Origin: Bryobacterales bacterium
GTDB lineage: Bacteria > Acidobacteriota > Terriglobia > Bryobacterales > Bryobacteraceae
NCBI GenBank assembly: GCA_025462945.1
Contig: JAOAPO010000398.1
Location: 1 to 33,135, forward strand
Direction: 5' to 3'
DNA: 33,135 bases
In this document: in pieces, positions 636-33,135 of the stretch
Position numbering within the stretch: the first letter of the stretch is position 1
How the letters are laid out: each line of letters starts with the position of its first letter
Notes under the pieces: generated by a model
Seen by the model: only the letters and a program-made list of their open reading frames with translations
Told to the model about the DNA's origin: nothing
Database searches by the model: none
Program-made: the position numbers and the translations under genes

Positions 636-1919
636 ATGCCGCTGCCCCAAATGCTTCTCGTCAAGCAGATCTTCCCTGACCGCCAACTCGCCGACATCCC
701 CGGCACCGTCGCAAAGGAACTCCAGGAAGCGGGCTTCGGTGCCAATCTCGCCCCCGGCGCCGCGGTCGCAATCGGAGTAGGCAGCCGAGGCATCACCAAC
801 ATCGCCACCATCGTCAAGTCCGTAGTCGCTTTTTGGAAGGAGAAGGGCATGAGCCCGTTCATCTTCCCCGCCATGGGAAGCCACGGCGCCGCCACTGCCG
901 AAGGCCAGGCCGACGTCCTCGCCCACTACGGCATCATCGAAGAAACCATGGGCTGCCCGGTGCGCAGTTCGCTTGAAGTCATCTCCCTGGGGCGCACTCC
1001 CGAAGGCATCGAAGCCTTCCTCGATAAGCACGCCGCGAGCTCTGACGGCATTATGCTGGTGGGCCGCGTGAAGCAACACACGGACTTCGAAGGCAAAATC
1101 GAAAGCGGCCTCTTCAAAATGATGGGCATCGGTCTGGGCAAATGGGCCGGAGCCAAAAACTATCACATCCACGCCTACAAGCTGGGTATGGAAGCCGTCA
1201 TTCGCAGCGTCGGCACCCAGGTTTTAGGCTCAGGCAAAATCCTCGGCGGCATGGCAATTCTCGAAGACGCCTACCACAACACCGCCAAACTGACCGCCGT
1301 CCCGGTTGGCCGCATGCTCGAGATGGAGGAAGGTCTCCTCGAAATCTGCAAGTCCTGGGCTCCGTCCCTCCCGTGCGATCTCGACATCGTGATGATCAAC
1401 GAGATCGGCAAGCAAATCAGCGGCGCCGGCATGGACACCAAAGTGGTCAACCGCGGCACCCAGGGCGAGTACAACCCGTGGAGCAACACGCCCAACATCG
1501 CCCGCATCTACCTCCGCGATCTCAACTCCCTCAGCTATGGCAACGGAGTGGGTTTCGGCCTTTCCGACATCGTGAATGACCGCCTGCTCGCTAAACTCGA
1601 TCCCCACCCCACCTGGATCAACGCCCTCACCGCCTCCACCCCCGGCGCTGCCAAGACCCCCATCCACTTCGCCACCGACCGCGAATGCCTGGATCGCATT
1701 GCGCTCACCGTAGGCAAGCACGACGTCTCCGAGGTCACCATCGGCTGGATCCACAACACCCTCGAACTCGGCACCATCGCCCTGAGCGCCAACCTGCGGT
1801 CCGAAATCGAAGCGAATCCCAGGCTCGAAATCCTCGAAGAAGCCCACGACCTCCCCTTCGACCGCGACGGCAATCTCCCCTTTGATGTCTTCATCAAGGA
1901 ACCCGTCCACGCTCACTAA
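636..1919 (+). CDS. LarA-like / DUF2088 lactate racemase-domain protein
   Basis: 427 aa ORF with PAMGSHGAATAEGQ and GRVKQHTDFEGKIESGLFKMMGIGLGKWAGA, typical of DUF2088/LarA-N-like proteins; no larB/C/E visible nearby. Confidence 0.8.
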   Translation: MPLPQMLLVKQIFPDRQLADIPGTVAKELQEAGFGANLAPGAAVAIGVGSRGITNIATIVKSVVAFWKEKGMSPFIFPAMGSHGAATAEGQADVLAHYGIIEETMGCPVRSSLEVISLGRTPEGIEAFLDKHAASSDGIMLVGRVKQHTDFEGKIESGLFKMMGIGLGKWAGAKNYHIHAYKLGMEAVIRSVGTQVLGSGKILGGMAILEDAYHNTAKLTAVPVGRMLEMEEGLLEICKSWAPSLPCDLDIVMINEIGKQISGAGMDTKVVNRGTQGEYNPWSNTPNIARIYLRDLNSLSYGNGVGFGLSDIVNDRLLAKLDPHPTWINALTASTPGAAKTPIHFATDRECLDRIALTVGKHDVSEVTIGWIHNTLELGTIALSANLRSEIEANPRLEILEEAHDLPFDRDGNLPFDVFIKEPVHAH

Positions 1920-1947
1920 GTGTCCGGCGCTGTGTTACTGTGGAGTC

Positions 1948-2181
1948 ATGCGCAACATCACAGTCACAGTCGATGACGACACGTATCGCCGTGCGCGCAT
2001 CGCAGCCGCCGAGCAAGACACCTCTGTCTCCGCCCTCGTCAAGAGCTACCTCCAGACACTAGCTGCGAACGAGACCGAGAGCGAGCGACTGAAACGACAG
2101 GAACGAGAAATCCGCGAGAAGATCATGGCCTTTGACGGCGGCGATCGTCTGTCCCGCGAACAACTCCACGACCGTCGCTGA
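1948..2181 (+). CDS. RHH/CopG-like antitoxin (VapB-type)
   Basis: MRNITVTVDDDTYRRARIAAAEQDTSVSALVKSYL is a ribbon-helix-helix pattern; directly upstream of a PIN toxin. ATG at 1948 rather than the tracked 1882 start. Confidence 0.75.
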   Translation: MRNITVTVDDDTYRRARIAAAEQDTSVSALVKSYLQTLAANETESERLKRQEREIREKIMAFDGGDRLSREQLHDRR

Positions 2182-2195
2182 GCCGCCTGCTCTCG

Positions 2196-2624
2196 ATGCC
2201 CCACTTCATAGACACCAACGTTCTGCTTTACTCGATCAGCAGGAACCCCGCCGACGCAGCGAAAAGGGATCGCGCCGTAGCGCTGCTGGCCGACGATGAC
2301 GGCGTACTCTCCATCCAGGTCTTGCAGGAATTCTACGTCCAGGCTACCCGAGTAACCCGCCCCGACCCGATTCCCCATCACTTTGCCGCAGCCCTCATCA
2401 AGTCCTGGACACGCTTCCGCATTCAGGACATGACCCTCGCCGTCCTCGACGGAGCCCTTCGGATTCGCGCCGACCATGGCTTCTCCTTCTGGGACAGCAC
2501 CATCGTCTCTGCAGCCCAAACTCTCGGCTGCAACACTCTCTACACAGAGGATCTCAACCACGGTCAGACACTCGAAGGTTTGACGATCCTCAATCCATTC
2601 CGTACCCTGAGTGACGCACCTTAA
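2196..2624 (+). CDS. PIN-domain ribonuclease toxin (VapC-type)
   Basis: MPHFIDTNVLLYSIS start and conserved acidic residues (...FSFWDSTIVSAA...TLYTEDLNHGQ), typical of VapC PIN domains. Confidence 0.88.
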   Translation: MPHFIDTNVLLYSISRNPADAAKRDRAVALLADDDGVLSIQVLQEFYVQATRVTRPDPIPHHFAAALIKSWTRFRIQDMTLAVLDGALRIRADHGFSFWDSTIVSAAQTLGCNTLYTEDLNHGQTLEGLTILNPFRTLSDAP

Positions 2625-2670
2625 CCGCGCGGCTGCCCCGACCAGCGAGCACCGCAAAAGCTGCAGCGAT
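2621..2670. repeat. dispersed intergenic repeat A, copy 1
   Basis: ttaaccgcgcggctgccccgaccagcgagcaccgcaaaagctgcagcgat, about 85% identical to copy 2 at 3762-3810; weaker similarity continues to about 2712. Confidence 0.75.
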
Positions 2671-2710
2671 CCCCGCCCCGGGCACCTCTCCCGCCTACGC
2701 TCGATCGCGA

Positions 2711-12790: not shown

Positions 12791-14550
12791 AAAGGAGGCT
12801 GCGGCGGCTTAACCACCGACCACGCCGCACTGCCCTTGATCTTGACCGGTCGCCGATAGACAGCATTGCCCGAGGCCACATACAGGTAGTCGAGTTCCTG
12901 CCCACCAAACGCCATCGCACGAACCGGCGCGCTCGTCGGTTTGTTGACGATCCCGGCGCAGCGACCGTTCTGTTCGCAGTACTGAATGCCCAGCGGCGTG
13001 GCGAAGTAGATCTGACCGATGCTGTCCGACGCGATCGCCCTCATGTCGCTTGTGGCTGAAGCCTCCCACAGGTCAACCCGGAAGAACGGCTCGCCATTCG
13101 CAATACCGCCATCCGGCATGATCTGGTACGACCACTGGAACCGGCGGTCCCGATCGCCCACAATGAGCATTGCCTGGTCGGGCGTCAGCCCCACCGACGT
13201 CATCAGGCTGATCGCCGGATTGTTGAGGACGTTTCGCTTCTGACCGCTTGCATCAATCAGCCCGACCGTGTGCGTCGCCGGGTCCACGTAGTAGATGGCG
13301 TTCTTCGAAGTCAGCACCAGGTCGGTGGCGATCACGCCCTCCGCAACTATTTTTTCGTCGGGGCCGGCGCCATACGAAACCACGCGTCTGCGCCCCGTTT
13401 GTGACGCGTACAAGCGTCCGTCGGCACCCATCCGTAACGCCGTCGCGCCGCCCGTTACCTTGAACGGAGCCTCTTTACCCGAAGCATCTGCGCTGAAGAT
13501 CGTGTCAGTGTTGGAGTAGAAAACGCGCCCGTCCGGCGCCGTGGCAAGAGCGGTGATCTCGCCGTGATTGCTGCCAACTTGCTCCCAGCGTTTGGCTGCG
13601 GACACGATCGAATAAACCTGGCCCCGAGGCTCCCAGTCTTTCTTGTTCAGTGCGGCCGGTTCGTGAACCTCGATCGGCTTGCCGTAATCGCGCCAGAGCC
13701 AGCGCAGAGCATCCGGCATGATCGCCGCGCCATGTTTCATGTTGTGGCCCTCAGTGCCCAGTTCGAACTTCACGTCGTAGCCCGAGAACTGCAGTGCCTC
13801 GTACATCAGCTGGTTCTGCATCGGCCAGCTGCCGCCATAGAAAACGCCGAACGGCTGACCCTCGCCGATGTGATCGTTCTTGCCCGCCTGCAGAAACACG
13901 CGCAGCGGCTTCGGCTCAGTCCTCCGAATGATGGCCGGAAACGAATCCGCGCCCTTCATGCTGACGAAGGTGCCGATGAAGCTGAGGACGCGCCGAAACA
14001 GATCCGGCCGTTCCCACGCGGCGACGAAAGCGCCGACAGCCCCGGTGCTCACGCCCTCGATCGCGTGGTCGTTCGGGTCTTTCGAAAGGTTGTAGCTCTT
14101 CGCGATCTCCGGAATCAGCTCCGTCTCCAGAAAGCTGGCGAACATCGGGCTCACGTTGTCGTACTCGAAGATTCGGTTGTACCGGCTCTGTGCCGAATCG
14201 GAAACTGCCGGCAGAACGCCTGGATCGACGAAGATGCCGATCAGCGGCGGCACATCGCCCTTCGCGATAAGGTTGTCCAGCACCGTGGGAACACGCTGTC
14301 CCTGACCAGCGGCACCGCTGCCATCGAGAAAGATCATGAACGGCGCAGGCTTCGACGCCGAGTACTGCGCCGGCACATAGATCTGGTAATTGTGGGGCAC
14401 GCCCTGATAGATCTTGCCCGGTGGCAGAACATGGCGGGTCAGCTTGCCCTGTGGCACGCCAGGCTGGACCTCAGATTCCGGGCCCATCTTGTAAACCTGG
14501 GCGCACGACAGCATGGAAAAGCCGAGAGTGAGTGCAAGCAGAGTTTTCAT
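12787..14550 (-). CDS. secreted esterase fused to an SMP-30/gluconolactonase-like beta-propeller
   Basis: Signal peptide; [28 protein letters not shown] and [23 protein letters not shown] (GxSxG); C-terminal propeller-like repeats. Overlaps the next gene by 4 nt. Confidence 0.8.
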
Positions 14551-14551
14551 C

Positions 14552-14578
14552 TTGAAAAAGGAAGTATATCGCTACAAT
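14552..14578 (+). promoter_or_regulatory. candidate promoter TTGAAA-15 nt-TACAAT
   Basis: TTGAAA 14552-14557 and TACAAT 14573-14578; ATG at 14587 is eight nt after the -10, with no SD. Confidence 0.45.
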
Positions 14579-14586
14579 GCAACCTA

Positions 14587-15840
14587 ATGCCCGTCTCGCG
14601 ACCGTTCTACAGAAGTCTTCATTTTCAGGTGCTGGCCGGGATTTTGCTGGGGGTTTTGTTCGGGGCGCTCTTCCCAGCAACCGCCGTAAAGATGAAGCCT
14701 CTGGGCGATGGCTTCATCCGGCTGATCCGCATGATCATCGCCCCCATCATTTTTTGTACCGTGGTCGTCGGCATCGGCACCGCGGGGGATATGAAGAAGC
14801 TCGGGCGCATTGGTGTGAAGGCCCTGTTCTACTTCGAAGTAGTCACCACCTTTGCGCTCCTGATCGGTCTGGTCGTCGTCAAGGTTCTGCAGCCAGGGGC
14901 CGGAATCAACGCGGACCCGAGAACCCTCGATGCGAAATCCATCGCGGCCTATGCCGCACCTGGTCAGGCTCTGTCGACCGTCGATTTTTTTCTGAACATT
15001 ATCCCCGACACGCTTGTTGGCGCATTCGCCAAAGGGGAGGTTTTGCAGGTGCTGCTGATCGCCATCCTGTTTGGCGTCGCGCTGGCAAATGTGGAGCACG
15101 GGCATCGCATCATCAACGGCTGTGAGCATTTCTCGCATGCGCTGTTCGGCATTATGGAAATCATCATGAAAGCCGCGCCTGTCGGAGCCTTTGGCGCCAT
15201 GGCATTCACGATTGGGCGCTTCGGGTTGGCCACGCTGATTCCGCTCGCCAAGCTGATGGGCTGCGTGATCCTGACCAGCGCCGCTTTCATAGTCTTAATT
15301 CTCGGCTCGATTGCAGCCTATGTGGGCGTCAACCTTTGGAAGCTTTTGAAGTACCTGAAAGAGGAACTGCTGGTGGTGCTCGGAACCTCGTCGTCCGAGG
15401 CGGCTCTGCCGGGACTGATGAAGAAATTGGAAGGCCTCGGCTGCGCCAAACACGTAGTCGGACTGGTCGTGCCGTCCGGCTACTCATTCAATCTCGATGG
15501 CACCTCGATCTATCTGACGATCGCCGCAATCTTTGTCGCCCAGGCAACGAACACGCACCTCACGCTGGGGCAGGAAGCCATCCTGCTGCTGGTGCTCATG
15601 CTGACATCGAAAGGCTCGGCAGCGGTCACGGGTGGTGGTTTCATTACCCTGGCAGCGACCCTGTCGTCGCTCGGTACGGTTCCGGTCGCCGGCATCGCCC
15701 TGTTGCTCGGCGTGGACCGATTCATGTCGCAGGTCCGCGCTTTCACGAATCTGATCGGCAATGCCGTGGCGGCGATCGTTGTTGCCAAGTGGGAAAAAGA
15801 GCTGGACGAAACGGTGATGGCAGCGGCTCTGAAAGAATAA
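14587..15840 (+). CDS. dctA: C4-dicarboxylate:cation symporter (DctA/DAACS family)
   Basis: [98 protein letters not shown]. The tracked ORF from 13564 is over-extended. Confidence 0.93.
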
Positions 15841-23734: not shown

Positions 23735-26700
23735 TTGCGTCTACTGTCTTTATACCGGGGATTTCACTTGAAGCCTTCTCTTTCCGCGCTCGTTGTTTTC
23801 GTTCTTTCCGTTGTACCCGCCGTTGCACAGCGTCGGACCGGGCTGCCTGACATTGACCTGAGGGATCAACCTGCGGTGCCAGAGGTTCGGACGGGCGGAC
23901 TTCAGCCCCGGGCGCGCGCGCTGGTGACGGAACGCGGGGCGCAGCTCGCGTCACTTGTGGCTTCAAGTCAGGATGCCCAACCAGGTCTGCGAGTCACCGC
24001 GAATCGATGGGGCCTGCCCAAGCTGCTGCTTCGCGAGGGCAGCGCACTGACTGCACCGTCACCAGCAGACCCTGAAGCGATCGGCAGGAATTTCCTCCGG
24101 CAGAACGCGCGCATGTTCTCGATGGACGGCGCTGCTGTAGATCAACTGCGGCTGGCGAGCCGCGATGCGCAATCAGGCGCGACGTATCTGGGATTTACTC
24201 AGACGATCAATGGCCTGGATGTTTTCGAAGGGCACCTTCGCGTTGTGCTGAGTCCAAAAGGTGAAGTGGTACAGGCCAGCGCGGGCGAACTGATACCTGG
24301 CGTGGCGGTTGTGACCCGGCCGGTGCTGACCGCAGCGGAAGCCGAAGCCAAAGCGCGTGGGGCTGTGAAGGCCGGCGAGTTTATTCGCGCACCGGAGCTC
24401 ATGATCTTCCCGCTGGATGCTGCTACCGGGCGTCTGGCTTACCGGCTCTACTTCGAGGCGGATCCGGCGCACACCTACGAGATTCTGATTGATGCTCGCG
24501 ACGGCTCCACGCTCTACCGGCACAACAATACCGTGTTCGCGACGGCGCAGGGGCGCGTGTGGAAAGAGTCGCCGCTCGTTGGCACACGCGATCTGGTGGA
24601 CTTTCCAGCCTGGTGGCTGCCGGATATCCCGGCCGTGACCACAGGAAATAATGTGGACGCGTTCCTCGATGCGAATGGTGATGAGAGGCCCGACACGACC
24701 GTCACGCCGGGTCTCCGCAACGCGCGTGCCGCTGCGAGTGCGGGCGTATTCGATTTCCCTTTCGGGGACGCGACGACCAGCTCCGATCCGCGAAATTACG
24801 CCGCTTCATCGGTCCTGAACATTTTCTACTTCCTCAACCGGGCTCACGACTACTTCTACGACCTCGGCTTCGATGAAGGGGCCGGTAACTTCCAGACCGA
24901 CAACTTCGGGAAGGGCGGCAAGGGAGGCGACGCGGTTGTGGGACTCGCGCAAAGCAGCAGCAGCACCAACAACGCTTCGTTTACGCCAACGCCCGAGGGC
25001 ACGCCGGGTCGCGCGCGTTTCGGAATCTTCACCCGGGGCACGACGAGCCGGCTGGACGACCGTGATGCGGCGTACGACGGGCAGATCGTGATCCACGAGT
25101 ATACGCATGGCGTTTCGAACCGTTTAGTGGGCAATCTGACCAGCACCAGTTGCCTGGCAAGGATTCAATCGGGAGCCATGGGCGAAGGGTGGTCCGATTA
25201 CTTCGCGGCGAGCTTCTTCAACAACCCGGTGATGGGTGCTTACATTGACGCGAATCCGGTGCGGGGTATCCGACGGCAGAGTTACGAAAACTACACGTTC
25301 ACTTATGAAGACATCGGTAACGATGGCTATGAAGTGCATGATGACGGCGAGATCTGGGCAGGCACACTTTGGGACGTTCGTAAGACACTGGGCCAGGCAA
25401 CAGCGGATCGGTTGATCATGGCCGGGCTGAAAGCGACGCCCTGTAATCCCTCGATGACAGATGCACGCGATGGCATTTTAGGCGCCGACCAGGCGACGAA
25501 CGGTGGGGCGAACCGGGCTGCGATCTGGACGGTGTTCGCGCGTCACGGAATGGGCTTCTCTGCCAATGGGGTGGAGGGTTCAGACTTCAGCGGGCACGTC
25601 TACGACGCTGCCTTCGACAAGCCTGCTGACCTGCAGCCTACGCGCGGACCTGCCATCACCAGTAAGCCGCTTACCGTTGTGGCCGGCGCGGGTGACAATT
25701 ACGTTTACACGGTGAGTGCGTCGAATCCGGGGCAGGGAACGCTGGTTTACAACCTTGCTGCGGGGCCGGCAGGGATGCTGGTGGATGCGAACTCGGGAGC
25801 TGTCTCCTGGACCGGTACCTTTACGTCGCCTCGCGTCAAGATCGAGGTGACTGACGGGAAGGGCGGCCGTGTCGTACACGGTTATATGGCGCCGATGCTG
25901 ACCCGCATCTCACTGGGCACACCGGTAACGATCTCCGGCAGTATCTACAGCTTCGGTTTTGCTTACGTCGACGTGCCGGCCGGGCTGCCAGTGTTACAGG
26001 TGGCCACCCGAGGCGCAAGCGGTGACGCAGACCTCGCGGTGCAGGATCCGGCGCGCGTGCTGTCCTACACGGAACGCGACGGTTCGAATGAGACCCTCAG
26101 CTTCGCGCGGCCGTTGCAGGGGCGATGGCTGATCGAGGTCGACGGCTTTGACAACTACTCTGACGTGAGTTTGTTGACGACGGCAATCACGCCGTCACCG
26201 CTGGCGGCGAACAGCGCGGTGAGCGGACTCGGGGGCATCGCTGGTTCAGAGCGGTTCTACCGCGTTTCTGTTCCGGCGCAGGCGGCGACCCTGAAGGTAA
26301 CTACTTCCGGCGATAACGGAGATGTCGACTTGTACCTAAGGTACGGAAACCCGGCGGTTTGCCAGGAAGCTGATTCTGTGCAGGAAGCCTGCTTGTTTAC
26401 GGTCAGATCCGCGGGCGAAGACTCCAATGAAGCGTTGACGGTCCAGAGCCCGGCAGCGGGCGACTGGTACATCGGCCTGACCGGCTTTGGGGCTTATAGC
26501 TCCCTGACACTGCGAACCTTCGTGACCTTGCGTCAACCGGATCTGACGGTGACCAGTACTCATTCGGACGGCTTCACGCAGGGGAAGAAAGGCGGGGCTT
26601 ATTCGCTCGTTGTAGCAAATGTCGGGTCCGTGGAGACGCTGGGAACGGTGACACTGGTGAACACGCTGCCCGCTGGCTTTACCGCCACCGCGATGGAAGG

Positions 26701-27646
26701 CGCGGGGTGGACTTGCGTACTCGGTACGCTCTCGTGCTCGCGAAGTGACGTGCTGGCTGCGGGAGCGAGTTTCCCGGTAGTCACTCTGACGGTCGACATC
26801 GGTGCTGGCGCGGGTGTCAGTGCTCTGAACGTCGCGACAGTAGCGGGCGGCGGCGAAGCGAACACGGACAACAGCACAGCCCGTGAGATCGCGCTGGTGG
26901 GCAATGGCGGACCGAGTCCGACTGTTCTGACGGGGGGCGTTGCCCCTGTGTATAGCTCGTCCACAACGATTCAGGCTGGTTCATGGATTTCGATCTACGG
27001 GACGAACTTCGCTGCCGGGGTCACGGAGTGGGCGGGCGACTTCCCCACGACGCTGGGCGGGGTGACGGTGACGGTCAACGGCAAGCCAGCCTACATCTGG
27101 TTCGTCAGCCCGACGCAGATCAACGTACAGGCTCCGGACGATTCGGTGACGGGCGAGGTTGATGTAGTGGTGGCTACCGGCAACGGGTCCGCCACTGCGA
27201 AGGTAACGCTGGGGGTGGCCGGCCCGTCGTTCAGCGTGCTTGGCGATGGCAAGCATGCCGCGAGTGTGATTGTGACGCCCGACGGCAGCGGCCAGTACGG
27301 GGGCGGGACCTACGACCTGAGCGGGCCAGCCGGCGCGTTCCCGTTCGTCACGCGATCGGTGAAGGCGGGCGAGGTGTTGATTCTGTACGGCGTCGGCTTC
27401 GGGGCGACGTCGCCTTCGGTGCCTGCGGGCCAGGTGTTCACGGGCGCCGCGCCTCTGGAGAGCCGAGTGGTTGTAACCATCGGGGGCATCAATGCGCCGG
27501 TGTCGTTTGGCGGCCTGACGGGAGCGGGACTTTACCAGTTCAACGTCACGGTGCCTGCAGGTTTGGGTGCCGGGGACAAGGCGCTCCGAGCCCAACTGGC
27601 GAACGGCTTCGCTACGCCGGTCGGTCCGGTAGTGGCGCTTCAGTAG
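23735..27646 (+). CDS. secreted M36-type (fungalysin) metallopeptidase with two PPC-like domains, a DUF11-like domain and a TIGR03437-like C-terminus
   Basis: VIHEYTHGVSNRLVG (HEXXH), MGEGWSDYFAASF; C-terminal IYGTNFA...VNGKPAYIWFVSPTQINVQAPD...LILYGVGFG...GLYQFNVTVPAGL. TTG start uncertain (23735 or 23768). Confidence 0.88.
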   Translation: MRLLSLYRGFHLKPSLSALVVFVLSVVPAVAQRRTGLPDIDLRDQPAVPEVRTGGLQPRARALVTERGAQLASLVASSQDAQPGLRVTANRWGLPKLLLREGSALTAPSPADPEAIGRNFLRQNARMFSMDGAAVDQLRLASRDAQSGATYLGFTQTINGLDVFEGHLRVVLSPKGEVVQASAGELIPGVAVVTRPVLTAAEAEAKARGAVKAGEFIRAPELMIFPLDAATGRLAYRLYFEADPAHTYEILIDARDGSTLYRHNNTVFATAQGRVWKESPLVGTRDLVDFPAWWLPDIPAVTTGNNVDAFLDANGDERPDTTVTPGLRNARAAASAGVFDFPFGDATTSSDPRNYAASSVLNIFYFLNRAHDYFYDLGFDEGAGNFQTDNFGKGGKGGDAVVGLAQSSSSTNNASFTPTPEGTPGRARFGIFTRGTTSRLDDRDAAYDGQIVIHEYTHGVSNRLVGNLTSTSCLARIQSGAMGEGWSDYFAASFFNNPVMGAYIDANPVRGIRRQSYENYTFTYEDIGNDGYEVHDDGEIWAGTLWDVRKTLGQATADRLIMAGLKATPCNPSMTDARDGILGADQATNGGANRAAIWTVFARHGMGFSANGVEGSDFSGHVYDAAFDKPADLQPTRGPAITSKPLTVVAGAGDNYVYTVSASNPGQGTLVYNLAAGPAGMLVDANSGAVSWTGTFTSPRVKIEVTDGKGGRVVHGYMAPMLTRISLGTPVTISGSIYSFGFAYVDVPAGLPVLQVATRGASGDADLAVQDPARVLSYTERDGSNETLSFARPLQGRWLIEVDGFDNYSDVSLLTTAITPSPLAANSAVSGLGGIAGSERFYRVSVPAQAATLKVTTSGDNGDVDLYLRYGNPAVCQEADSVQEACLFTVRSAGEDSNEALTVQSPAAGDWYIGLTGFGAYSSLTLRTFVTLRQPDLTVTSTHSDGFTQGKKGGAYSLVVANVGSVETLGTVTLVNTLPAGFTATAMEGAGWTCVLGTLSCSRSDVLAAGASFPVVTLTVDIGAGAGVSALNVATVAGGGEANTDNSTAREIALVGNGGPSPTVLTGGVAPVYSSSTTIQAGSWISIYGTNFAAGVTEWAGDFPTTLGGVTVTVNGKPAYIWFVSPTQINVQAPDDSVTGEVDVVVATGNGSATAKVTLGVAGPSFSVLGDGKHAASVIVTPDGSGQYGGGTYDLSGPAGAFPFVTRSVKAGEVLILYGVGFGATSPSVPAGQVFTGAAPLESRVVVTIGGINAPVSFGGLTGAGLYQFNVTVPAGLGAGDKALRAQLANGFATPVGPVVALQ

Positions 27647-30600
27647 CTACTTGCCGCCATTCAGGACCTCGATCGCTTTCTCAATCTGGCGGTCGTGGCC
27701 TGCGAGAAAGTCGGCCGGGGTGTTGTCGACCAGGATGTCGGGGGGCACGCCGAAGTTCTCCATATTTTCGCCCGTCGCTGTGTAGATGCCTGCGCCCGGG
27801 GTGCGAATGGAAGACCCATCGAGCAGCGTGAAGGCACCTGTACCGATGACGGCGCCGTATGTGGGCATGCCGATGATCTTGCCGAGTCCGAGGCGCCGGA
27901 AGCCGTCGGGGAACATTTCGGCATCGCTGGCGGAGCGCTCGTTTTGCAGCACCACCATGGGCCCGAGATAGGTGCGACCGGGTCTGACGATCTCGACTGA
28001 ATCCCGGCCCCTGGTTCGCTGGTAGGCGACGCGCTGGTTGAGGAGTTCCAGCAGTTCCTGATCGATGCCGCCACCGCTGTTGAAGCGCTCGTCGATGATG
28101 AGGCCTTTCTTGTCCTGATTGGCGAGAAGGTCGGTCTCGAAGCGGCGCAGCGACGGTTCATCCATGGCGCGGATATGCAGATAGCCGAGGGTTCCATCGG
28201 TGAGGCGCGCGACCATCTGCCTTTTATCTTCGACCCACTGGGCGTACTGGAGGTCGACGAAAGCGGCTGAGGTGATGGGTTCCACGGAGACGGTCCACGC
28301 GCCGTCGTGGGTGGGTTTGGAGTTGACGACGAACTCGAACTTACCGCCCGGCAGAACGTTGAAGAGCTTCCAATAATTCTCGCCGGGAGTGATTTCGTAG
28401 TCATTCACGGCAAGGACGAAGTTGCCGGTCGCGAGCCTCATGTATTCGTGGTCGGCGGGGCCGTTGCGATAGATGGTGGAGATCTTGTAGAAGCCGGAGG
28501 GATCGGGGACGAGGTCGAAGCCAGGATAGCGCGTCTGGACGCGATCGATGGCGTTCTCACCGGGGATGCGATTGCCGCCAGTGATGCCGGTGTGAGAGGC
28601 GTTGAGTTCGCCGATCATCTCCATGATCAGGTTGTGGAGCTCTTCCAGATCGGCGACATGGGGCAGCAGCGATTCGTACTTGTCGCGCGCGGCCGACCAG
28701 TTCACACCGTGCATTTGCGGATCGTAGAAGCGGTTTTTCATCACCCTCCACGCTTCGGCGAAGACCTGGCGTTGTTCGGCCACGGTATCGAATTCCATAC
28801 GCAGGGTGAAGTTGACGCGTCGGGGTTGTGCGCCTGTGGCAGCAGTTCCGGCTGCGGCAGCGGCGGCGGCTGCAGCAGCGCCGCGTCCAGCTCGACCTGC
28901 GCCAACGGCGGCGGCAGCAGAGGTATCGGAGGGTGGCGGAGTGACCGCGAGGTTGTAGAGGCCGCCGCCGGCGATGTAGTAGACGCTCCGGCTGTCTTTC
29001 GTCCATTGGGGTTCAGCGCCACCGCCGAAGCCGCCACGTCCACCGCCACGTCCGCCCTCTGCAGCGGTGTTCAGGCGAGTGATGCCCGAACCGTCTTCGT
29101 TCATCACCAGAAGTCCGTCACCGAAGGACGACATCACGATCATGCGACCGTCAGGGGACGGGACGATGGAGGTGACTGAGCCCGCCTGCCTCGTGAGTTG
29201 AGTGATGCGCCGAGTGAGGCCATCCCAGTCGATCTTCACCTGGACGGGCGGGGTTGCGGACGCGTCGCCGTGTGCGCCGCGTCCGGGCCCGGGCACGGCG
29301 GGTTCCTTGAGGTCCGCCTGCGCTTCCGTGTTGATGTCGCGATTGCCGGGATCCTTTTCCACGGGCTGGAAAGCGGCCGCGAAGACCTGCATGGCGTTGC
29401 CCCAGCCGAGTTGCGCGACACCGGGCACCGAGACGCCACCGAGGAAGAAGAGACGCTTTCCATCAGGAGCCCATTTGGCACCCGTGGAAACCTGGAAAGC
29501 GTCGTTTGTGATGATGTGTTCAAGGCCCGTAGAGAGTTCCTTGATCCAGACATGGGCGCGGAGACGCTTGTCCTGGCTGGTGTAGGAGAGCCACTTGCCA
29601 TCCGGCGAGAGCTGCACGTCTGCGATGTTGCCTGCTTCGCCCGTCGCCAGAACTTGTTCGGCCCCCGACTCAATTTCCACCTTGTGGAGTTTGTGGTCCG
29701 ATCCAGACCAGAGCAGCGACTCGGAGTCGGCCGTCCAGAGCAGGCCCGACTTGTCGCAATCGACGGTGGTTAATTGTTTAGGGTTTTTGCCTAACTCGTC
29801 GGAGATGAAGAGTTCCTCGCGGCCGGTCCGGTCAGAGACGAAGGCGATCCACTTGCCATCGGCGGACCAGCGGGGTTGCTGTTCCTTCCACGGGGTGGCA
29901 CTGACGCGCTGGGGTTCGCCCCGGTCCGTGGCGACGGTGAAGATCTCGCCATGCGCCACGACAGCGGCACGACGATTGGAGGGGGACAGGCTGAAGTCCT
30001 GGGCGGTGCTGTTAAGGGTTATCAGTTCCGCTTCGTTTTGCTTCGGGTCCGTAGTGATCTCGATGCGGATTTCTGTGCACTTGCCACTGGCGATGTCGAG
30101 CTTCCAGAGTCAGAAGTTATCTTCGTAGACGATGACCTTGCCGTCGGCGGAGATGCTGGGGAAGAAGAGGTTGCCGTCCTCATGATGTGTGACCTGGGTT
30201 GCCCGCCCGCCTTTATCGGAGATCTTCCAGATGTTATTGACGCTCTTCATCACTTCGGGGCTGCCGTTTTTGACGGTCTTCTCGTTCGGTAGTTCGTTGG
30301 AGACGAAGTAGATCTCGCCGCCGGTGCTGTACATGGGCCAGAGCATGTTGCCTTTGTACTCGGGGTCGCCCAGCTTCGTGAAGCTCTTGGAGGCCACATC
30401 TTCGACCCAGAGGTCGGCCGCGTAGCTGCCGCGGTAGTGCTTGCGCGACCAGAGCTGGGGATGGCGCGTGAACGCCAGTTTCTTACCATCGGCCGAGTAA
30501 CTGGCCCAGATCCCCCAATCGGTGCCGATGGCCGTTTCGATTCCGCCCTCGGCCGCTACCTGCCAGAGTGTCGTTACTGTGGGGAAGGCGCCGTTGCCGC

Positions 30601-30973
30601 GAGTGGAACTGAAGACGATCTTCTTACTGTCGGCGGTCCAGCCGACCACGTCGTCGTCGGCGGAGTGCCAGGTCAGCTGGCGTGGTTTTCCTCCGGTTGC
30701 GGGCATGACGTAGACGCCATAGTTACCGGCACGATCGGAGGAGAAGGCGATCCACTTGCCATCGGGCGAGAAACGAGGGTAGGTTTCTCGCGCAGTGTTA
30801 TCGGTCAGCCGTGTGACGCCCGTCCCGTTTTCGTTCGCCGCCCAGATGTCACCGAGATAGCTGAAGGCTACTCTGCCGTTGAAGTAAGTGGGGTGCCGCA
30901 GCAGTTTCACCTCTGCCTGCGCGGTTACGCCAACGATAAGGGTAAAAAGAAGTACCAAAAATCGAGTGAACAT
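27647..30973 (-). pseudogene. Tricorn-like protease interrupted by one in-frame TGA (30110-30112)
   Basis: Upstream part MFTRFLVLLFTLIVGVTAQAEVKLLRHPTYFNGRVAFSYLGDIW...IVYEDNF; stop; same frame continues LWKLDIASGKCTEIRIEITTDPKQNEAELITLNSTAQDFSLSPSNRRAAVVAHGEIF...GELNASHTGITGG...NERSASDAEMFP. Confidence 0.8.
28840..28930 (-). repeat. GCN-rich low-complexity tract encoding poly-Ala/Gly linker
   Basis: Encodes SAAAAVGAGRAGRGAAAAAAAAAAGTAATGA between propeller and catalytic regions of the Tricorn-like protein. Confidence 0.7.
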
Positions 30974-31754: not shown

Positions 31755-32507
31755 TCAGCGTTTGCTGGCCACGATGCGAAGGCGGCGGTAATCGGCGTGC
31801 CACTGGCCATCCACCCAGAGAGAACTGCGCAGACGTTCCTCGATTCGATGCTCGATCTCGCCCCGAGCGGGTCCCGGGACACCTTCGAAGTACGAGCCGC
31901 CGAACATTTCGAGCCATTCGCGGAGGCCGCGTTCGGGGTGTTCCAGCTTCGTCCACCGGGCGAAGTTCTGAGCTAAGTGGACTTCGAAGCCGTGCGCTTC
32001 GAGCAGGGTTGTGTATTCACCGATGCTGGGAAAGTACCAGACATTCTGGCCAGAGAAACCGGCGCCGCGAATGACCTCTTCGACCCCGGCCATAATGCAC
32101 GCGACGTTGCCCTTGCCGCCCATCTCCATCACGAAACGACCGCCAGGGCGAAGGGCTGCGCCGATGCACTGCACAGCGGCTTCGGCCTCCTGCACCCAGT
32201 GGAGAGCGGCATTCGAGAAGACGGCGTCACAGGGCTCGTCCAGCATGAAGTTGCGGACATCGGCGAGGAGGAACTTCAGCTTCGGGAAGTTCTGCCTGGC
32301 CTGGGCGATCATGGACGTGCTGGAGTCAAGGCCGGTCACCTGTGCACCGCTCTCCGCGATTTTGGCGGTGAGGTGACCGGTGCCGCAGCCGATGTCGAGG
32401 ATCTCTTCGCCGGCTTTCGCGTCGAGGAGTTCGAGCAGATCGCCGGCTGATTTCCAGACGAAGGAGTGGCGGTCGTCGTAGAGCGAGCTGTCCCACTTAT
32501 CGGGCAT
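31755..32507 (-). CDS. class I SAM-dependent methyltransferase
   Basis: EILDIGCGTGHLTAKIAESGAQVTGLDSSTSMIAQAR, CDAVFSNAALHWVQ, GGRFVMEMGGKG. Confidence 0.92.
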   Translation of the reverse strand: MPDKWDSSLYDDRHSFVWKSAGDLLELLDAKAGEEILDIGCGTGHLTAKIAESGAQVTGLDSSTSMIAQARQNFPKLKFLLADVRNFMLDEPCDAVFSNAALHWVQEAEAAVQCIGAALRPGGRFVMEMGGKGNVACIMAGVEEVIRGAGFSGQNVWYFPSIGEYTTLLEAHGFEVHLAQNFARWTKLEHPERGLREWLEMFGGSYFEGVPGPARGEIEHRIEERLRSSLWVDGQWHADYRRLRIVASKR

Positions 32508-33135
32508 TATGGGCGCTCCGCCGGGACGAGCGTGAAGTAGTCATAAACGGTTCGAGCGATTTCAGCCACGGCCTTTTCCGAAACTTCAGAGGGGCGGAAG
32601 GAAGCCTTGGTGAAGACGGAGATGGCCACGTGTCCGGCATCGCCCGGGAGGGTGATCACGCCGACGTCATCCACCACACCGCCGATTGAACCGGTCTTGT
32701 GGGCGACGGCGGTACCGGCGGGGAGCAGGCCCTTCAGGCGGGTCTTGCCGGTCTGGCAGCGTTCGAGCATGCCGAGAAGAGTGGCTGCATTCGCGGGGCT
32801 GAACAGATCTTGTTTCCAGATGCGCACCAGCAGCTTCGTCATGTCATCGGGCGTTGCGGTGTCGCGAGGGTCAGACCACTGGGCGCGGCGCGCTCGCATG
32901 TGATCGGGCTCAGGAACCGCGTTGTAGATCTGGTCCCACATATCGCGATTCCATTCGGTTTCGGGGGGAAGCGACTTCGCACCCATGAAGTCATGCAGGA
33001 GGAGCGCGATGTTGCGGTCGATCCGGATGCTGTTCAGGCCGAGTTCCCTCATTCGGGCGGTGACCGCCGCTGGTCCGCCTGCCTCTTTCAGGACAATGTC
33101 GGCAGCAGTATTGTCGCTGATCACGATCATGAGTT
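32507..33135 (-). CDS. class A beta-lactamase-like serine hydrolase, N-terminus beyond the window
   Basis: SDN motif (VISDNTAAD), DPRDTATPDDMTKLL and HKTGSIGG; the SxxK region would lie off the right edge. Confidence 0.82.
   Translation of the reverse strand, partial: LMIVISDNTAADIVLKEAGGPAAVTARMRELGLNSIRIDRNIALLLHDFMGAKSLPPETEWNRDMWDQIYNAVPEPDHMRARRAQWSDPRDTATPDDMTKLLVRIWKQDLFSPANAATLLGMLERCQTGKTRLKGLLPAGTAVAHKTGSIGGVVDDVGVITLPGDAGHVAISVFTKASFRPSEVSEKAVAEIARTVYDYFTLVPAERP

Follow-up and report, generated by a model that had tools for sequence, protein, structure and literature searches.

The interrupted gene and its neighborhood

The window, which is the whole 33,135-nucleotide stretch analyzed here (contig C191), belongs to a 6.5 Mb acidobacterial assembly of 640 contigs derived from metagenome data. 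A frame of 1109 codons on its minus strand (30973-27647) translates with a single internal stop, a TGA at codon 288, in addition to its terminal stop (Table 1). No other internal stop and no frameshift occur between 27647 and 30973, in agreement with the original prediction of one in-frame TGA in an intact frame. The join across the stop reads ...YEDNF*LWKLDIASGK..., and the earlier translation by hand matches it. Both sides of the TGA have high coding potential in a common frame, which excludes a chance pair of open reading frames.

Pfam matches identify PD40/TolB-like propeller repeats both before and after the TGA, followed by Tricorn_C1 and Peptidase_S41 domains that score over their cut-offs (E = 3e-20 and 2e-25). 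This order of shared repeats and then protease domains indicates that the two halves are one protein. The Tricorn protease of Thermoplasma (PDB 1k32; MEROPS S41) aligns to residues 733-1104 (E = 3.5e-47), and S793, H794, S1016, and E1072, which are invariant among 19 aligned orthologs, align with the Tricorn active site. The histidine and serine that had looked catalytic from the letters alone both coincide with Tricorn catalytic positions. Judged by its domains and catalytic positions, the gene encodes a putative Tricorn-like S41 protease. It shares with the Thermoplasma enzyme the Tricorn_C1 and S41 domains, the aligned Ser-His, Ser-Asp, and Glu positions, and an N-terminal half that is a propeller. 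However, this propeller half is weakly similar in sequence to that of Tricorn, the N-terminus resembles a signal peptide, and the copy in the window is interrupted. The earlier description of a signal peptide before the stop and catalytic residues after it holds: the signal-peptide-like start lies in the N-terminal part, and the histidine and serine lie downstream.

Table 1. Features of the interrupted locus, with other features of the same genome that are discussed in the text
Feature	Position	Strand	Description
Whole interrupted Tricorn-like S41 protease gene	27647..30973	-	1108 codons including the internal TGA, plus stop
N-terminal part	30113..30973	-	287 codons; signal-peptide-like start and first PD40/TolB-like propeller blades
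In-frame TGA	30110..30112	-	Codon 288; Gly (GGN) in 22/22 ortholog loci
Downstream part	27647..30109	-	Remaining propeller, Tricorn_C1 (query 732-788), Peptidase_S41 (929-1082); Ser793-His794, Ser1016-Asp1017, and Glu1072 kept
GTG codon	29957..29959	-	Codon 339; first in-frame ATG/GTG/TTG past the TGA; no Shine-Dalgarno-like sequence ahead
M36 (fungalysin-like) peptidase gene	23735..27646	+	With Solibacter C-terminal domain (TIGR03437)
Class A beta-lactamase-like gene fragment	32507..33133	-	Runs off the contig end
tRNA-Sec, anticodon TCA	L056 (G000:C414) 1497-1590	-	68.7 bits, over cut-off
SelB gene	L065 (G000:C627:15103-16932)		347.8 bits, over cut-off
OEP (outer membrane efflux) gene	L118 (G000:C230) 13403-14827	+	TAG at 14507
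cNMP-binding and pyridine nucleotide-disulphide oxidoreductase gene	L093 (G000:C21) 1033-2685	+	TAA at 2485

The Tricorn-like gene is flanked by the M36 peptidase gene and a divergent cytochrome c gene. Both are also its neighbors in one relative (G016), and the cytochrome c gene is present beside the ortholog in another (G008). These shared neighbors indicate that the locus is orthologous. The M36 and Tricorn-like genes converge and their ends abut directly, and this pair adjoins in G016 as well.

The interrupted codon in orthologs

Glycine is encoded at the site (GGA, GGC, GGG, or GGT) in each of the 22 ortholog loci that cover it, and none of them has a stop or a split at this position. The surrounding motif is FGLWKLD or FGIWKLD in most orthologs, so the FGLWKLD given in the original prediction was right. 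The closest ortholog (~79% identical) has GGA at the site and the next closest has GGG. A single G-to-T change is enough to convert GGA to TGA, which bears out the earlier proposal that this is the simplest route to the stop. Distant homologs carry Glu, Asp, or Tyr instead.

The original prediction had also raised the prospect of homologs that are naturally divided in two here; in the alignment, homologs are uninterrupted and are never two genes. A natural split gene or an internal restart, by which the downstream part would be made separately, is accordingly very improbable. A 770-codon frame does open at GTG 29959, which is the first in-frame ATG, GTG, or TTG past the stop, as had been tracked before. 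However, no relative is split at the site, ~50 conserved codons lie between the TGA and this GTG, and a restart product would be without the signal peptide and first blades. No Shine-Dalgarno-like sequence was found ahead of the few first in-frame starts past the TGA (GTG 29959 and CTG codons). Scanning the region for promoters and terminators was uninformative.

Full-length orthologs are present in 8 of the 19 genomes of the genus (the source genome counted) and in other Bryobacterales/Solibacteraceae. Because its presence in the genus is patchy, the Tricorn-like gene is probably dispensable. The window sequence groups with its two closest orthologs with full support in the tree. A search of its own genome for a second copy, as a sign of chimerism or redundancy, found none, the other matches being weak and partial.

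Selection and the age of the lesion

Pairwise dN/dS with relatives is about 0.03-0.17 overall in both parts of the gene, and these ratios are rough since dS is almost saturated even for the nearest relatives. The window sequence gives about 0.05-0.07 with its closest two relatives and 0.11-0.17 with a more distant one, and the closest two give 0.03-0.05 with each other. The ratios are similar before and after the TGA and also in pairs without the window sequence. The comparison of the two sides of the stop that had been proposed earlier thus gives purifying selection in both parts alike. The protein distance of the window branch is 0.159 upstream of the stop and 0.178 downstream. This branch is longer than those of the two closest relatives, and the same is true, to a smaller degree, of the cytochrome c gene next door. 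By contrast, the window sequence and its two closest relatives hardly differ in their dN to the more distant relative (0.239, 0.222, and 0.232).

About 3% of point mutations in the frame 30973-27647 would create a stop, so that under neutrality one stop should arise for each 0.01 changes per site. A second one would be expected well before 0.03 changes per site, and its absence bounds the age of the lesion at about that value. If real, the lesion is recent, because no second stop or frameshift accompanies it and the two sides are under equal selection. Given this recency and that no relative shares the stop, the downstream purifying selection reflects the time before the stop arose and is no argument for read-through.

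Decoding of the UGA codon

In E. coli, a UGA that precedes a C terminates translation weakly. Leaky read-through of UGAC by near-cognate tRNA-Trp might give a little full-length protease, with the stop being either tolerated or regulatory. Purifying selection on either side of the TGA is compatible with this reading, and one survey argues that in-frame stops are common in bacterial genes with low dN/dS and may be read through there, although its authors hold many of them to be short-lived (PMC7918605). We nevertheless consider read-through unlikely. The dN/dS values mirror a long period that preceded the stop, the stop is found in no relative, and the other interruptions in this genome are TAG and TAA. 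The TGAC context is in normal use, ending 28 of 113 TGA-terminated long ORFs. Furthermore, tRNA-Trp(CCA) is canonical and has a 5-bp anticodon stem rather than the 4-bp stem of the tRNA-Trp variants linked to UGA reading (PMC13092985). An elaboration of this model, in which the UGA acts as a switch controlled by phase or stress and leaky UGAC read-through places Trp at the Gly position to supply a small, tunable amount of exported protease, is more doubtful still.

Reassignment of UGA to Trp and a suppressor tRNA were considered and rejected. Long ORFs in this genome normally end in TGA more often than in any other stop (113 of 271), and the tRNA-Trp is the canonical one described above. None of the 40 tRNA matches found in addition to tRNA-Sec reads a stop codon, and the anticodon TCA is found in tRNA-Sec only.

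The genome encodes both tRNA-Sec(TCA) and SelB (Table 1), which makes selenocysteine at UGA 30112-30110 worth testing. An in-frame UGA in a genome with this machinery is what the gene has in common with bacterial selenoprotein genes, but unlike them it is without Cys homologs, a hairpin, or a redox site. The homologous residue is never Cys, being Gly in all orthologs and Glu, Asp, or Tyr in distant homologs, and the site is a propeller strand. No stable hairpin was found directly past the UGA: the 53 nt that begin there fold worse than 197 of 200 shuffled sequences (z-score +1.85), and the region has no Rfam match. The machinery is present and the site is unsuitable, so that insertion of selenocysteine here is extremely improbable. 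Overall, the read-through and internal restart options of the original prediction gained no positive support: a Sec hairpin, a suppressor tRNA, and a Shine-Dalgarno-like sequence ahead of the first in-frame starts were all absent, and the tRNA-Trp is canonical.

Other interrupted genes in the same genome

We scanned 759,616 bases of this genome, comprising the window and 63 fetched stretches (57-60 contigs; ~0.73 Mb), with a dicodon score for stops that have in-frame coding sequence on either side. These stretches, partly picked because preceding searches had named them, are the basis for the count of interrupted genes. Most of the 49 candidates were gene ends with a start codon immediately after or shadow frames. 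On inspection by eye or with Pfam these were discarded, and so was a possible transposase remnant in C410 that has no Pfam match. In addition to the window gene, the scan yielded two genes that are clearly interrupted within a Pfam domain. The TAG of the OEP gene replaces a codon that is CAG (Gln) in three homologs, and the TAA of the oxidoreductase gene falls at a conserved Lys/Arg codon that is AAA or AAG in the closest homologs. Each stop is one base away from the codon of the relatives. Single interruptions are therefore ordinary in this genome and are not specific to UGA: TAG, TAA, and TGA all recur as single-base stops, a pattern to be expected from nonsense mutations of the ordinary kind, from variation among strains, or from base errors, and not from a UGA-specific mechanism.

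Base errors are the basis of the most serious competing explanation, that the TGA is an assembly or consensus sequencing error and the organism has an intact gene. The assembly is fragmented, the Tricorn-like gene is intact in all other respects, and the two other single-base stops at conserved codons in the 0.73 Mb sample make such errors possible. However, if ~3% of errors give stops, then three random ones would imply a rate of ~1e-4 per base, which seems high for a consensus, and the other genes in the window appear to be free of such lesions. We regard a consensus error as a real but lesser possibility.

A probable recent nonsense mutation

The interruption seen in the assembly consensus is probably an ordinary single-base nonsense mutation that is real in the organism, either fixed or as a strain polymorphism. 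In support of this reading, there is only one TGA, the codon is Gly in every ortholog, the catalytic residues are intact, and selection is alike on either side. As counterpoints, a consensus error in a fragmented assembly would look identical, and a working read-through gene would be equally well kept. A very recent nonsense mutation and a sequencing error had both been listed in the original prediction, and both fit the GGA to TGA change as the simplest one and the lack of a second lesion.

In the mechanism we propose, a single-base change, most simply GGA to TGA, would have struck an invariant Gly codon of an intact gene for a secreted Tricorn-like protease. Translation would stop after 287 residues and leave an exported propeller fragment that lacks the protease domain. 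The allele is most likely null, with a truncated and inactive product. The event would be too recent for more stops, frameshifts, or relaxed selection to have appeared.

Nonsense-interrupted genes are common in bacteria. Like the young pseudogenes surveyed in PMC7918605, the window gene has one in-frame stop in a frame that is otherwise intact, purifying selection on both sides, and a stop that is not shared with relatives. Nothing specific sets it apart from them except that its sequence comes from a fragmented assembly. The finding calls for the gene to be annotated as interrupted and has little importance beyond that. As a case, it illustrates that a genome with selenocysteine machinery may hold in-frame UGAs other than Sec codons, and that Gly homologs, an absent hairpin, and a genome-wide count of interruptions settle the selenocysteine question quickly.
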